In this document: positions 54,823 to 60,880 of the stretch, piece after piece
Layout of the letters: each line of letters opens with the position of its first letter
How positions within the stretch are numbered: position 1 is the first letter of the stretch
DNA from: Halorubellus sp. JP-L1
GTDB lineage: Archaea; Halobacteriota; Halobacteria; Halobacteriales; Natrialbaceae
Direction: 5' to 3'
Length of the DNA: 64,000 nucleotides
Assembly: GCF_011440375.1 (NCBI RefSeq)
Contig: NZ_JAAOIR010000001.1
Coordinates: forward strand, 744,001-808,000
Notes under the pieces: model-generated
The model's input: only the letters and a program-made list of their open reading frames with translations
What the model was told of the DNA's origin: nothing
Databases searched by the model: none
Position numbers and translations under genes: made by a program

Positions 54823-54916
54823 ACGCCGCGGTCCGTTCGGCAGCCCCCACCGGCAGCGACCGGTGGGCGACGCCGCCCGCCGCGATCGGCGGTAACGATT
54901 GCAGGCCCCGCAAAGG

Positions 54917-54923
54917 CTTTACG
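54917..54923 (+). promoter_or_regulatory. TATA-like element of the ilvB leader
   Basis: ctttacg, centred about 29 bases before the leader-peptide ATG at 54949, places the ilvB transcript start at or just before that ATG. leuA ends 95 bases earlier, so ilvB can be transcribed separately. Confidence 0.5.
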
Positions 54924-54948: not shown

Positions 54949-55035
54949 ATGCAGTCCACCGTCGCTGTCGCGGGCGAGCGTCTCGCCACGAGCGACGGTG
55001 CTGTCGTCCGGACTATCGGTATTGTAGGGGCGTAA
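54949..55035 (+). CDS. Candidate ilvB leader peptide, 28 aa
   Basis: ATG CAG TCC ... encodes MQSTVAVAGERLATSDGAVV followed by RTIGIVGA and TAA. Eight of 28 residues are Val, Ile or Leu, concentrated at the end (AVV, then IGIV), just before a hairpin. The last three sense codons form the left arm of that hairpin and the stop codon its loop. It sits about 29 bases after a TATA-like box. This is the layout of an amino-acid attenuator peptide, here for the enzyme committing to valine and isoleucine. It is followed by 196 bases before ilvB. Not proven to be translated. Confidence 0.5.
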   Translation: MQSTVAVAGERLATSDGAVVRTIGIVGA

Positions 55036-55045
55036 GCGCCCCTAC
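55024..55045 (+). promoter_or_regulatory. Perfect 9-bp hairpin in the ilvB leader
   Basis: gtaggggcg (55024-55032), loop taag, cgcccctac (55037-55045). The loop contains the leader peptide's TAA stop. No T-run follows, so it is not a bacterial-style terminator by itself. It could be an attenuator, pause or RNA-stability element. Confidence 0.7.
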
Positions 55046-55231
55046 CACCTCTCCTCCTCGACCCCGCGTATCGTTCGACCACCAGCCACGAGTCCGCACG
55101 GCAGCACGACGACAGATGCCCGCAACACACCCGACAGATCAGACGTACCATCGGCCGTATCGTTCGCCAACCACACCACGGAGCCAACCGGCTCGTCGGA
55201 CAGCGACGACGCCCGAACGGAGGTGTCGGCC

Positions 55232-57085
55232 GTGAGCGAGCCGGTGCAGCCCGCCACGGAGACGGGCGCGACCGACGCTGACGCCACCGACGCGGACGCC
55301 GAGCCGACCGAGACGGAACCGCCGGCCGAGGGCGCGGAGACGGCCGAGACCGAACCGTCGTCCGAGGACGCCGACGCGCCGGCACCGGTCCGGACGGGCG
55401 CGCAGTCCGTCGTCCGGTCGCTCGAGAACGCCGGCGTCGAGCACCTGTTCGGCGTCCAGGGCGGCGCCATCATGCCCGTGTACGACGCGGTGTACGACTC
55501 GGAGATGACGCACTACATGATGGCGCACGAGCAGGCGGCGGCGCACGCCGCGGACGCGTACGGGATCGTCTCCGGGACGCCCGGGGTCTGCCTGGCGACG
55601 TCCGGGCCGGGGGCGACGAACCTCGTCACCGGCATCGCGGACGCGAACATGGACTCCGATCCGATGATCGCGCTGACGGGGCAGGTGCCGACGGAGTTCG
55701 TCGGGAACGACGCGTTCCAGGAGACGGACACGACCGGCGTCACCGCACCGATCACGAAGGACAACACGTTCGCGTCGAGCTCGGACCGCGTCGGCGACGA
55801 CGTCGGCGAGGCGTTCGCGCTCGCCGGCAGCGGCCGACCGGGGCCGACGCTCGTCGACCTCCCGAAGGACGTCACGAACGGCGACACCGACCAGGAGCCG
55901 GGGTCGCCTACGCTCCCGGACACGTACCACGTCCAGGAGCGAGCGCCCGCCGAGGACGTCGCGGACGCGGCGCGTACGGTCGAGGAGTCGAACCAGCCGG
56001 TGCTCCTCGTCGGCGGTGGCGTCGTCAAGGGCGAGGCCACCGAGGAGGCGCGCGCGTTCGCAACCGAGTACGAGATTCCGGTCGTGACGACGATGCCGGC
56101 GCTCGGGTCGTTCCCCGAGGACCACGAGCTGAGCCTCGAGATGGGCGGGATGCACGGCACCGGGTACGCGAACATGGCGTTGACCCACACCGACTGCCTG
56201 ATCGCGGTCGGGTGCCGGTTCGACGACCGACTCACGGGCGGCATCGAGACGTTCGCGCCCGACGCCGAGGTCGTCCACGTCGACATCGACCCGGCGGAGA
56301 TCAGCAAGAACATCGAAGCCGATCACCCGCTCGTCGGCGACGCCGCGACCGTCCTCGACCAGCTGGACGCGGCGATGGAGTCCGCGCCGAAGGCGACGAA
56401 GTGGCGCGCGACCTGCAAGCAGTGGCAGTCCGAGTACCCGATGGAGTACGCCGCGCCCGAGGACGAGCCCGTGAAGCCGCAGTTCGTCGTCGAGGCGTAC
56501 GACGCCGCGACCGGCGACGACGCCATCGTGACGACGGGCGTCGGCCAGCACCAGATGTGGGCGGCGCAGTACTGGACGTACACCGAACCTCGCACCTGGG
56601 TCTCCAGTCACGGCCTCGGGACGATGGGGTACGGGCTCCCGGCCGCGATCGGCGCGCGCATCGCAGCGGACGCCGACGGCAACGAGGACGCGGCCGTGAT
56701 CGCGTTCGAGGGCGACGGGTCGTTCCTGATGACGATGCAGGAGCTCGCCGTCGCGGTCCGCGAGAACCTGGACGTCACGGTCGCGGTCCTGAACAACGAG
56801 TACATCGGGATGGTCCGTCAGTGGCAGGACGCGTTCTTCGACGGCCGGCACTCGGCGAGCGACTACGGCTGGTGCCCGGACTTCGCGAAGCTCGCGGAGG
56901 CGTTCGGCGCGAAGGGCATCGCGGTCGAGGCGTACGACGAGGTCGCGGACGCCGTCGAGGAGTCCGTGAACTACGACGGGCCGGCGGTCGTCGACTTCCG
57001 CGTCGACCCGGCGGAGAACGTCTACCCGATGGTTCCCAGCGGCGGGGACAACGGCCAGTTCGCGCTGGCGGAGGACCAGCTATGA
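55232..57085 (+). CDS. ilvB: Acetolactate synthase, catalytic subunit
   Basis: ThDP-dependent acetohydroxyacid synthase large subunit, 617 aa, first common step of valine/isoleucine/leucine synthesis. It has a disordered acidic N-terminus (1-52), then [20 protein letters not shown], the catalytic glutamate in [14 protein letters not shown], and the ThDP motif from [13 protein letters not shown] to LNNEYIGM. Two GTG starts exist. The one at 55232 has GGAGGT seven bases upstream, whereas the one at 55223 overlaps that site, so I use 55232. The stop overlaps the ilvN ATG. Confidence 0.96.
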
Positions 57086-58002
57086 GCGACGACGCGACCG
57101 ACGGACGGGATCCGGCTGGTGGAAGCGACGAGCAGCGAACGACCGGCGAGGCGGACGCGCAGCCCTCGCCCGGCGAGCACGACGCGGCCGTGGCGCCGCG
57201 AGCGCGCTCGGACGCGACCCGCGAGGGACTCGCGGGACCGGAGCCGGAGGACCGACCGCGGCCGCACGGCAAGCGGAACTCGCAGGGGATCCGCATCGAT
57301 CCCGAGGTCGAGGCGGAGCGCGAACCGCGGCGTGCCGTGATCAGCGTGCTCGTCGTGCACGAACCCGGCGTGCTGTCGGAGGTGTCGAGCCTCTTCAGTC
57401 GCCGACAGTTCAACATCGAGAGCCTGACCGTCGGCGCGACCCACGACCCGGACCGTGCGCGGATCACGGTCGTCGTCGAGGAGCCCGACCCGGGCATCGA
57501 CCAGGTCGAGAAGCAACTGCGGAAGCTGATTCCGGTCATCTCGGTGCGCGAGCTGGAGCCGGACGCGGTCCGGCGGGAGCTCGCGATCATCAAGGTCGAC
57601 GCGCGCGCACCGAGCGAGGTCGCGGCGGTCGCGGAGATGTACGACGGTCGGACCGTCGACGCCTCCAGGCAGACGGTGACCGTCGAGGTGACGGGGTCGC
57701 GCCAGAAGATCGAGGGCGCCATCGAGACGCTCTCGCAGTTCGGCGTCCGCGAGATCACGCGGACCGGGACTGCCGCGCAGGCACGCGGTGCGGACGCGAC
57801 CGCTGGCACGCCGCCCGCCGGGACGACCGGTCAGACGGAAGCGGCCGAAGCGGCGACCGACGGCGGCGAACCGACCGACGCAGCGACCGACGGTGGCGAA
57901 CCGACCGACGCAGCGACCGACGGTGGCAAACCGACCGACGCGGCCACCGGCGGCGAGACGAACAGCGAATCGAACGAGACCGCAGATACGCACGACGCAT
58001 GA
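57082..58002 (+). CDS. ilvN: Acetolactate synthase, regulatory subunit
   Basis: Small subunit giving valine feedback control and activation of IlvB. The ACT domain starts [20 protein letters not shown] and includes [20 protein letters not shown]; a second ALS_ss domain follows to about residue 230. At 306 aa it is nearly twice the bacterial length, with an 80-residue acidic/Arg head and a 75-residue tail. The tail holds three near-identical 10-residue units ([10 protein letters not shown]) encoded by a 30-bp tandem repeat. Four-base overlaps join it to ilvB and ilvC. Confidence 0.95.
57860..57949. repeat. 30-bp tandem repeat in the ilvN tail
   Basis: Three in-frame units close to gcgaccgacggtggcgaacc followed by gaccgacgca, spanning about 57860-57949. 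They encode repeated A-T-D-G-G-E/K-P-T-D-A. Confidence 0.85.
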
Positions 58003-59042
58003 CCGACGAATTCACTACCGACGTTTACTACGACGACGACGCAGACGAATCGTACCTCGAATCGAAGACGATCGCGGTCCTGGGCTACGGGAGCCAGGGG
58101 CACGCGCACGCGCTGAACCTCCACGAGAGCGGGTTCGACGTCGTCGTCGGCCTCCGCGAGTCCTCTGACTCGTGGCCGGTCGCCGAGGACGACGGGCTGG
58201 CGGTCGCGACGCCGTACGACGCCGCCGAGCAGGCGGACGTCGTCTCCATCCTCGTCCCGGACACCGTCCAGCCGGCGGTGTATGAGGAGATCGAAGCGGC
58301 GCTCTCCGAGGGCGACACGCTCCAGTTCGCGCACGGGTTCAACATCCACTACAACCAGATCCAGCCGCCGGAGTACGTGGACGTGACGCTCGTCGCGCCG
58401 AAGTCGCCGGGGCACATCGTCCGCCGGAACTACGAGCGCGACGAGGGAACGCCCGGACTGCTCGCAGTCTACCAGGACGCGACCGGCGAGGCCGCCAAGG
58501 AGGGCCTCGCGTACGCGAAGGGGATCGGTTGCACGCGAGCGGGCGTCATCGAGACGACGTTCCAGGAGGAGACGGAGACCGACCTCTTCGGCGAGCAAGC
58601 CGTGCTCTGCGGGGGCGTCACATCGCTCGTCAAGCAGGGGTTCGAGACGATGGTCGACGCCGGCTACAGCCCCGAGATGGCGTACTTCGAGGTACTGAAC
58701 GAACTGAAGCTCATCGTCGACCTCATGTACGAGGACGGGCTCGCCGGCATGTGGCACTCCGTGAGCTACACCGCGGAGTACGGCGGGCTGACGCGCGGCG
58801 ACCGCGTCGTCGACGAGGGCGTCCGCGAGAACATGGAGGAGATCCTCGAGGAGGTCCAGAACGGCGAGTTCGCTCGCGAGTGGATCCTCGAGAACCAGGC
58901 TGGTCGGCCGAGCTTCGAGCAGCGCGTGCAGGCCGAGGAAGAGCACGAGATCGAGCAGGTCGGCGAGGAGCTCCGCGCGCTGTTCTCGTGGAGCGACGAG
59001 GCGGACGAACAGGAGAACGATCCGGCGCCAGCGGACGACTGA
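57999..59042 (+). CDS. ilvC: Ketol-acid reductoisomerase
   Basis: Class I KARI, 347 aa, converting acetolactate to dihydroxy-isovalerate. Dinucleotide motif [20 protein letters not shown] (26-45); the following loop GLRESSDSW has the Arg and Ser residues associated with NADPH use. Metal/substrate residues lie in [20 protein letters not shown] and the knotted C-terminal domain ([20 protein letters not shown]). The ATG overlaps the ilvN stop. An acidic tail of about 15 residues ends the protein. Confidence 0.97.
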
Positions 59043-59063: not shown

Positions 59064-59447
59064 ATGACCCGAAACCGACGAGAGAGAGACGACGAATCGA
59101 CCCAGATGCGCGCAGTCAGCCACACGAATCCCTACACGAACGAGTCCATGGGGTCGGTGTTCGAGCACGGCGTGACGATCGTCGCCGACGGCGGAGAACG
59201 CGGTGCCGCCGACGAGCCGACGGACGAACACGAGCCGGCTGACGAGCACGAGCCGGACGCCACGGACGCGGACGACGAACCGTTCGACGACACCGAAGCG
59301 GACGGCGACGAGCCGTTCGACGAGGACGCCGAGCCCGAGGACGGGACGCCGATGAAGGACGTATCGCACGAAGCGCCCGAGGGCGGGCACGGGAATCGCA
59401 TGTTCGAACGCGTCGGCGACACGGCCGACGTGGTAGACGAAGAATGA
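59064..59447 (+). CDS. Uncharacterised acidic protein in the leucine operon
   Basis: A 127-aa protein of unknown function. Two conserved-looking ends, SHTNPYTNESMGSVFEHGVT (19-38) and MKDVSHEAPEGGHGNRMFER (96-115), flank a 55-residue disordered acidic stretch with EHEPAD-type repeats. Both ends repeat a pattern of V-S-H ... and M-F-E/V-F-E, perhaps an internal duplication. It lies 21 bases after ilvC and its stop overlaps the leuC ATG by four bases, so it is translationally coupled to leuC. A role tied to leuC or iron-sulphur cluster handling is conceivable but unproven. Confidence 0.8.
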   Translation: MTRNRRERDDESTQMRAVSHTNPYTNESMGSVFEHGVTIVADGGERGAADEPTDEHEPADEHEPDATDADDEPFDDTEADGDEPFDEDAEPEDGTPMKDVSHEAPEGGHGNRMFERVGDTADVVDEE

Positions 59448-60880
59448 GCGAGGGGACGCTGTACGACGAGGTGTGGGAGCGCCACCGCGTCGATACGCTC
59501 CCGACCGGGCAGGACCAGCTGTTCGTGGGCCTGCACCTGGTGCACGAGGTGACGAGCCCGCAGGCGTTCGGGATGCTCGAAGAGCGCGACATGGAGGTCG
59601 CGTACCCCGAGTTGACGCACGCGACCGTCGACCACATCGTGCCGACGGCGGACCAGTCGCGGCCGTTCGACGACGACGCCGCGGAGACGATGATGCGCGA
59701 GCTCGAGGCGAACGTCGCGGAGGCGGGCATCGAGTTCTCGCATCCCGACACCGGGAACCAGGGGATCGTGCACGTCGTCGGCCCGGAGCAGGGCCTCACG
59801 CAGCCCGGGAAGACGATCGTCTGCGGGGACTCGCACACGAGCACGCACGGCGCGTTCGGCGCGCTCGCGTTCGGCATCGGCACGAGCCAGATCCGGGACG
59901 TGCTCGCGACGGGCTGCATCGCGATGGAGAAGCAGGACGTCCGCCGCATCGAGGTCACGGGCGACCTCGGCGACGGCGTCGAGGCGAAGGACGTCATCCT
60001 CCAGATCATCCGGAAGCTCGGGACCGACGGCGGCGTCGGGTACGTCTACGAGTACGGCGGGTCCGCGGTCGAAGCGCTCGGCATGGAAGGCCGGATGAGC
60101 ATCTGCAACATGAGCGTCGAAGGCGGCGCTCGCGCCGGGTACGTGAACCCCGACGAGACGACCTACGAGTTCCTCGAGGGCCGCGACCGCGTCCCGGACC
60201 GCGGCGACGGGTTCGAGGAACTCGAGGCGTACTGGAAGTCCATCGCGAGCGACGACGACGCGACGTACGACGACGTCGTCGAGATAGACGGCGACGCGCT
60301 CGCGCCGATGGTGACGTGGGGGACGACGCCCGGCCAGGGCGTCGGCGTCGACGAACCCATCCCCGCGCCCGAGGACCTGCCCGCGGACAAGCAGGACACC
60401 GCACGGAGCGCGCAGGAACACATGGGCGTCGAACCCGGCGACACCATGGACGGCTACCCGGTCGACGTCGCGTTCCTGGGGTCGTGCACGAACGCGCGCC
60501 TGCCGGACCTCCGCAGAGCCGCGAGCGTCGTCCAGGGTCGCGAAGTCGACGAGGACGTTCGCGCGCTCGTCGTCCCCGGCAGCCAGCGCGTCCAGCGCGC
60601 CGCCGAGGAGGCGGGGCTCGCGGACGTCTTCCGCGACGCCGGCTTCGAGTGGCGGAACGCCGGCTGCTCGATGTGCCTCGGCATGAACGAGGACCAACTG
60701 GAGGGCGACGAGGCGTGTGCGTCCTCCTCGAACCGGAACTTCGTCGGGCGCATGGGGAGCAAGGACGGCAAGACCGTCCTCATGAACCCACAGATGGTCG
60801 CCGCGGCCGCCATCCACGGCGAGGTCACTGACGTCCGCGACGTCGAGACCACGCCGGTCGAGGAGGTGACCGAGGCATGA
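59444..60880 (+). CDS. leuC: 3-isopropylmalate dehydratase large subunit
   Basis: Aconitase-family isomerase subunit, 478 aa, carrying the [4Fe-4S] cluster. Motifs: [20 protein letters not shown], the first cluster cysteine in [11 protein letters not shown], and the other two in [35 protein letters not shown] follows as in the family. Joined to the small subunit gene by a four-base overlap. Confidence 0.97.

Follow-up and report, generated by a model that had tools for sequence, protein, structure and literature searches.

A conserved leader ORF and hairpin upstream of haloarchaeal ilvB form a candidate isoleucine/valine-sensing attenuator

The DNA analyzed here, a 64,000-nucleotide stretch of the Halorubellus sp. 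JP-L1 genome (referred to as the window), contains upstream of its ilvBNC-leu genes a leader that probably functions as a cis-acting, ribosome-mediated attenuator sensing isoleucine and valine. As judged by comparison with related sequences, its components are a short leader ORF (uORF1), a marked bias in the codons of that ORF, a hairpin, a G-free tract, and a second upstream ORF (uORF2), all of which are conserved. Attenuation in response to amino acid supply is a textbook mechanism in bacteria. To our knowledge, it has not been established in the Archaea. The sequence-only reading that first drew attention to the region had referred to such control as little documented in that domain. A search of an open-access library of the literature revealed no archaeal case and no archaeal ilvB attenuator.

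The leader region and its operon

The arrangement of the region is provided in Table 1. The genes downstream of the leader, in the order ilvB-ilvN-ilvC-(small ORF)-leuC, constitute an operon for the production of the amino acids that match the leader codons. The gene located 5' of the leader region is of the leuA/citramalate synthase type. Halorubellus salinus is the nearest named relative, with an IlvB that is 92% identical (among the best 80 of 369 haloarchaeal ilvB stretches). Since most relatives begin with MSE or MSD, the start of ilvB is best placed at the GTG at position 55232 (MSEP...), and therefore 186 nt separate the hairpin from the gene, in agreement with the 187 bases estimated in the sequence-only reading. 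A small acidic ORF of 127 amino acids is positioned between ilvC and leuC (window 59064-59447). It shows no match in Pfam or NCBIfam, and its ending resembles that of a small ORF in another haloarchaeal locus, L127, which is described below. Insertions in ilvB1 (HVO_1508) and ilvC of H. volcanii result in Val/Leu/Ile auxotrophy (PMC4300041).

Table 1. Positions of the leader elements and downstream genes within the window
Feature	Position	Strand	Basis or remarks
Palindromic element, partial copy, GCAAnnnTTGC-like, candidate transcription-factor site	54892..54903	+	Upstream of the promoter
BRE/TATA-like promoter element GCAAAGGCTTTACG	54910..54923	+	Read from sequence; CTTTA at 54917-54921, about 30 nt 5' of ATG 54949
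uORF1, leader peptide MQSTVAVAGERLATSDGAVVRTIGIVGA followed by stop, 28 codons	54949..55035	+	ATG 54949, TAA 55033-55035
Control codons ATC GGT ATT GTA (Ile-Gly-Ile-Val)	55015..55026	+	Codon counts across 81 loci
9-bp hairpin	55024..55045	+	Arms GTAGGGGCG (55024-55032) and CGCCCCTAC (55037-55045), 100% complementary; loop TAAG with the stop codon
G-free, C/U-rich stretch (3' arm and tail)	55039..55059	+	Read from sequence
Conserved element CGTATCGTTCGA	55067..55078	+	Alignment; CGCAYCGTTTTC in many relatives
uORF2, 39 residues, TGA overlapping the GTG start of ilvB	55116..55235	+	ORF reading and comparison
Shine-Dalgarno-like GGAGGTG for ilvB, within uORF2	55219..55225	+	Read from sequence
ilvB, acetolactate synthase large subunit	55232..57085	+	TIGR00118, 697 bits, above cut-off
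ilvN, acetolactate synthase small subunit	57085..58002	+	TIGR00119, above cut-off
ilvC, ketol-acid reductoisomerase	57999..59042	+	TIGR00465, above cut-off
leuC, 3-isopropylmalate dehydratase large subunit	59444..60880	+	TIGR00170, above cut-off

Direct inspection of the sequence bears out the initial description of the leader, namely a 28-codon ORF behind a TATA-like element and a perfect 9-bp stem that carries the TAA in its loop. The uORF1 peptide has no family match in either NCBIfam or Pfam. Taken by itself, a perfect 9-bp hairpin is unimpressive in a GC-rich window, because 25 overlapping matches occur within the 64 kb, as compared to 4-12 in ten first-order Markov resamplings. It is set apart from chance by its conservation in all 80 of the named relatives (the best 80 of 369). 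When the region was compared with the 4227 models of Rfam, none exceeded its gathering score, the best being naRNA4 on the opposite strand at 14.1 bits versus the 59.5 needed. A scan of the window for bacterial-type promoters and terminators likewise gave nothing.

Conservation of the leader among haloarchaea

The element, defined as GTAGGGG followed by a short spacer and CCCC, was sought within 500 nt 5' of the IlvB match. Counts over 81 loci refer throughout to the window together with the best 80 of 369 named haloarchaeal ilvB stretches, ranked by similarity; given this ranking, and since 39 of the 81 belong to one CGT-ATT group, they do not represent independent events. The element is present in 80 of the 80 named loci, and in all 81 the GTA is in frame with an open ATG ORF. 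The 80 counterpart peptides end in ...(I)-V-G-A/V and run into the same hairpin. The conservation of ORF and stem in close relatives that was to be expected of a genuine leader is thus observed, and the opposite outcome is excluded. The proposal that the stop codon forms the loop of the hairpin stands for 26 of the 81 loci, the window among them, where the stop lies at +9 relative to the GTA. It does not extend to the others, in which the stop is found at +12, in the loop or 3' arm (46 loci), or at +24, past the hairpin (nine loci), and such an arrangement is accordingly common but not required. The stop codons themselves are TAG in 62 loci, TAA in ten, and TGA in nine.

For the class as a whole, the search was narrowed to the form preceded by ATT or ATC, since the bare pattern, GTAGGGGn{1,10}CCCC, proved unspecific in the genome from which the window derives (13 matches versus 22 for the reversed control). 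Of 391 class genomes, 292 contain the ATT form, ATTGTAGGGG-n-CCCC, versus 13 with the reversed control pattern by our own count, and 106 contain the ATC form, ATCGTAGGGG-n-CCCC. One or the other, usually as a single copy, is found in up to 375 of the 391 genomes, a hand count from two listings that represents an upper bound because chance matches occur, as in G217, where the string is present and the leader is absent. IlvB is encoded directly downstream in 16 of the 20 ATT-form matches that were fetched. Sixteen genomes contain neither string. Ten of these have a diverged leader (G126, G132, G148, G160, G220, G255, G261, G289, G352, and G382), in some cases with a stem restored through compensatory changes and without the Gly, and four have no leader (G142, G286, G337, and G409, with IlvBs that are 54-58% identical), whereas in G264 the IlvB is cut at a contig end and in G380 there is no IlvB match. 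The absence of the leader from G217, G142, and three f11 genomes was counted against the attenuator. Named Haloferax species possess it (L113, L118). Outside of the class, the element was found in none of the 17 ilvB upstream regions examined from the same phylum. This absence, together with its near universality in the haloarchaea, argues that the element is restricted to that group and is old within it.

The fixed position of the promoter provides additional information. A TATA box located ∼25-30 nt 5' of the start codon is the geometry of an archaeal leaderless transcript, and this geometry is observed here with a spacing that is constant in most loci. The distance from the start of the BRE/TATA-like motif to the ATG is 37 nt in 57 of the 81 loci, 38 nt in three, 40 nt in six, and 33-34 nt in seven, with the pattern missed in eight. 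Strings of the TT[AT]T/TTTA/TATA type are found between -130 and -60 from the GTA in 77 of the 81 loci and anywhere between the hairpin and ilvB in 31. The alignment contains no conserved TATA-like element between the hairpin and ilvB, the sole conserved one preceding uORF1. On the basis of this arrangement, uORF1 is probably translated from a leaderless transcript. A palindrome of the GCAACGnTTGC type lies shortly 5' of the BRE/TATA in many haloarchaeal ilvB promoters. It is weak in the alignment and is possibly a transcription-factor site.

Rare control codons are a known hallmark of attenuators. The codon GTA occupies the last position in all 81 leaders, whereas the IlvB genes of these loci use it for 0.3% of their Val codons. 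Within the twelve codons before the GTA, ATT supplies 126 of 157 Ile codons, as compared to 5.5% of those in IlvB, and the Ile codon directly preceding the GTA is ATT in 66 of 80. The IVL content is 0.41 over the eight residues before the GTA, as compared to 0.14 over the remainder of the peptide and 0.18 for IlvB. In all 81 loci the leader ORF therefore carries, as do those of the trpL/ilvL-type attenuators, codons for the amino acids of its operon. Common codons are employed in the same stretch for Leu (2 of 49 AT-ending), Phe, Ser, and Pro. AT-ending codons are also encountered at the Arg CGT before the ATT (the Natrialbaceae-type CGT-ATT group, 39 loci) and at Gly GGT/GGA elsewhere, and thus part of the bias could reflect a slight tendency toward A/T-ending codons close to the stem.

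A hairpin of at least 5 bp was observed in 119 of the 119 leaders folded, and it follows or overlaps the control codons in the manner of a trpL/ilvL-type attenuator. The RNAalifold consensus for 63 complete leaders consists of this hairpin and nothing else. No mutually exclusive antiterminator pairing is conserved in it; individual species may have pairings of their own, such as that of 54957-54966 with 54991-55000 in the window. Base pairs were tabulated from single folds of 105 distinct hairpins; covariation counts on the short-segment alignment were dropped because the 3' arms were not in register after MAFFT. According to these tables, the four G-C pairs are nearly fixed, and the fifth pair is C-G in 81 hairpins, U-G in five, U-A in four, and unpaired in 15. 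The outer pairs formed by the GTA are open in about 30-40 of the 105, and the GTA is retained even without a partner. The spacer between GGGG and CCCC is 5, 6, or 8 nt in the 81 loci.

Natural variants in which the stem has been rebuilt are of particular relevance, given the earlier suggestion to ask whether the Ile/Val codons of the peptide and the paired stem covary. The pairing GGGGC/GCCCC is replaced by GGGCC/GGCCC or CGGGCC/GGCCCG, and the fifth pair changes from C-G to U-A. Three leaders (L171, L223, and L226) have the GGGCC/GGCCC or CGGGCC/GGCCCG stem and the peptide V-R-A, with the Val GTA in frame and the Gly lost, and a fourth (L224) has the stem GTAGGGCC/GGCCCTAC and the peptide V-G-P-A. 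The conserved Gly (GGG) is explained by the stem, for it is lost when the stem bases change. These comparisons show that the hairpin is maintained as a structure and that the Val/Ile codons persist at positions where they are not needed for pairing. One genome, G288, has two ilvB copies. In the second of these (L235), the GTA is changed to ATT, resulting in an Ile-only leader, GIIGIIGIIGAPQ, that ends in G-I-I-G-I-I-G-I-I-G-A-P-Q, and the leader of the other (L221) ends in MVGA. Possibly the two copies differ in amino-acid sensitivity.

Proposed mechanism and rival explanations

The interpretation of the region as a Val/Ile attenuator leader, put forward in the sequence-only reading, is supported by its conservation, by the rare Ile and Val codons, and by the compensatory rebuilding of the stem. 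In the mechanism that we infer, the ribosome would gauge charged Ile- and Val-tRNA ahead of the entry of RNA polymerase into ilvBNC-leu. Transcription would start at or adjoining the ATG of uORF1, and because the transcript begins there the ribosome would load at its extreme 5' end. With Ile and Val plentiful, the ribosome would pass the rare ATT and GTA codons, halt at the stop codon in or beside the hairpin, and depart. The GC-rich hairpin would then fold just behind RNA polymerase on the G-free, C/U-rich stretch, and transcription would end early at the tract, aided by the hairpin or by a factor of the aCPSF1/FttA type. With either amino acid scarce, the ribosome would stall on ATT or GTA with its front edge masking the GGGG arm, the hairpin would not form, and the polymerase would continue into ilvBNC-leu. 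Ribosomes would enter downstream via uORF2, followed by termination-reinitiation at the overlapping ilvB start. An antiterminator would be unnecessary because the stalled ribosome directly covers the hairpin arm.

The usual archaeal terminator is a U-tract. A TTTT lies within 40 nt of the hairpin in only 15 of the 81 loci, and the position of the U-run is occupied by the G-free C/U tract. The 14 nt following the CCCC contain a mean of 0.56 G in the relatives, versus 35% G in the window. The missing U-run and antiterminator weaken the case for termination. The capacity of hairpins for termination in haloarchaea is supported by an H. volcanii reporter, in which 59% of transcripts ended at one hairpin in vivo (PMC7237163).

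The main rival, which we consider unlikely, is a translational version operating via uORF2, whereby stalling on uORF1, or the hairpin formed after release, would set the supply of ribosomes to uORF2 and ilvB with no early end to transcription. A uORF2-type ATG ORF in the frame whose TGA overlaps the ilvB start codon is found in 71 of the 81 loci, with two and two in the other frames; it is Arg-rich and shows no match to a Pfam family. Overlaps of the ATGA type couple translation in H. volcanii (PMC6728339), but those involve pairs of genes, whereas uORF2 is a short ORF rich in Arg. The uORF2 ATG is mostly 65-80 nt 3' of the uORF1 stop, which is far for reinitiation, and in the consensus fold of the 63 leaders neither the start of uORF2 nor that of ilvB is masked or freed by a conserved pairing. 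The scarcity of U-tract terminators, both in the loci and in the scan of the window, would suit translational control, whereas a hairpin and a G-free tract placed right behind the control codons look directed at the polymerase. The conserved CGCAYCG element between the hairpin and uORF2 reaches 97% identity at single columns of the alignment. It has no obvious partner for pairing. A pairing between it and the ilvB start was considered and dropped, many loci having an unfitting CACCG (alignment judged by eye).

Ribosome-mediated transcriptional attenuation, the reading preferred here, would depend on the codons rather than on the peptide. It is very improbable that the leader is an arrest peptide, in which the nascent ...I-V-G-A itself, whatever its codons, would halt the ribosome upon sensing a metabolite. 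Close relatives show almost no variation in the C-terminal I-V-G (Ile in 80 of 81 loci, Val and Gly in 81 each), as such a model would predict, but leaders ending in V-R-A-R, V-R-A-A, V-G-P-A, I-I-G-A-P-Q, and M-V-G-A led to the rejection of I-V-G as the signal. In addition, the Gly disappears with changes in the stem bases that account for its GGG, and the choice of rare codons would have no role. Equally hard to credit is an inverted repeat that a repressor would bind as a DNA operator, or that would be an RNA stability or protein-binding hairpin, with an incidental small ORF: the arms do form a DNA palindrome and another palindromic element lies 5' of the promoter, but the GGGG-CCCC spacer varies, the outer GTA persists in hairpins that lack its partner, the ORF frame is preserved in 81 of 81 loci, and the rare codons fall mainly on Ile and Val.

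As for the origin of the proposed attenuator, we see an even chance that an ancestor of nearly all living haloarchaea evolved it, independently of bacteria, in an antiterminator-free form, with a leaderless uORF and a stalled ribosome that covers a single hairpin which would otherwise trigger early, possibly aCPSF1/FttA-dependent, termination.

Relation to known attenuators and further observations

Leaderless short ORFs rich in the codons of the regulated amino acid reportedly also serve as attenuators in mycobacteria, where poly-cysteine sORFs are said to act on the translation of the downstream gene. They are similar to the haloarchaeal leader in being short and leaderless, and by these accounts differ from it in being bacterial, specific for cysteine, and translational.

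The ilvB-II motif/ilvL attenuator of Corynebacterium, as described in PMC11857589 and PMC10272879, likewise has a leader peptide rich in branched-chain amino acids before ilvB, a GUA control codon, a hairpin downstream, one copy per genome, a distance of ∼150 nt from ilvB, and an ATG ∼1 nt from +1. For ilvBNC of C. glutamicum in particular, the leader ATG is one nucleotide from +1 and GUA is a conserved control codon (PMC11857589). Unlike the haloarchaeal element, with its single conserved hairpin overlapping the control and stop codons, its lack of a U-run, and its uORF2, the Corynebacterium attenuator, in these sources, has terminator, antiterminator, and anti-antiterminator stems and a U-run. 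Given the absence of the antiterminator and U-run and the lack of an Rfam match, the haloarchaeal leader is not a member of the Corynebacterium family. The candidate ilvB leader peptides of Actinobacteria (Seliverstov 2005; PMC1262725) also precede ilvB and were also found by comparison; they are bacterial and have terminators, with no archaeal example in the abstract of that report. As an attenuator, the haloarchaeal leader is a variant with one conserved hairpin, no antiterminator, and no U-tract.

Were the proposed mechanism correct, it would represent, within the domain Archaea, attenuation in response to amino acids through coupled transcription and translation, having arisen independently of that in bacteria. 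The presence of the leader before ilvB in nearly all haloarchaea makes functional transcription-translation coupling in the Archaea testable at one locus, and the system provides natural variants of the stem and the codons, along with what may be a regulated premature terminator lacking a U-run.

Upstream of trpC, no Trp-codon leader was found in 24 of the 25 genomes examined, which argues that this type of leader is not a general haloarchaeal device; the element seems to be confined to ilvB. Several related strings were noted. In L127 (G216, C2:397923-397943), a second complete leader (MRQLDTDSHTAPASGGAVGARLIVGV followed by a stop, and GTAGGGGTCTGACACCCCTAC) precedes a small ORF ending in ...ANRVFERGNEGRR that looks related to the ORF between ilvC and leuC, with no IlvB within the 1 kb fetched downstream. 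Several genomes of one genus (G138, G265, G283, and G325) contain a second conserved string, ATTGTAGGGGTGCATCCCC, which is not beside ilvB where examined (L132). Finally, L145 and L146 (G363:C2) are near-identical short stretches located 150 kb apart (MGCPPHTFTISTIVGASV...). They are not ilvB leaders and probably represent a repeated mobile element.
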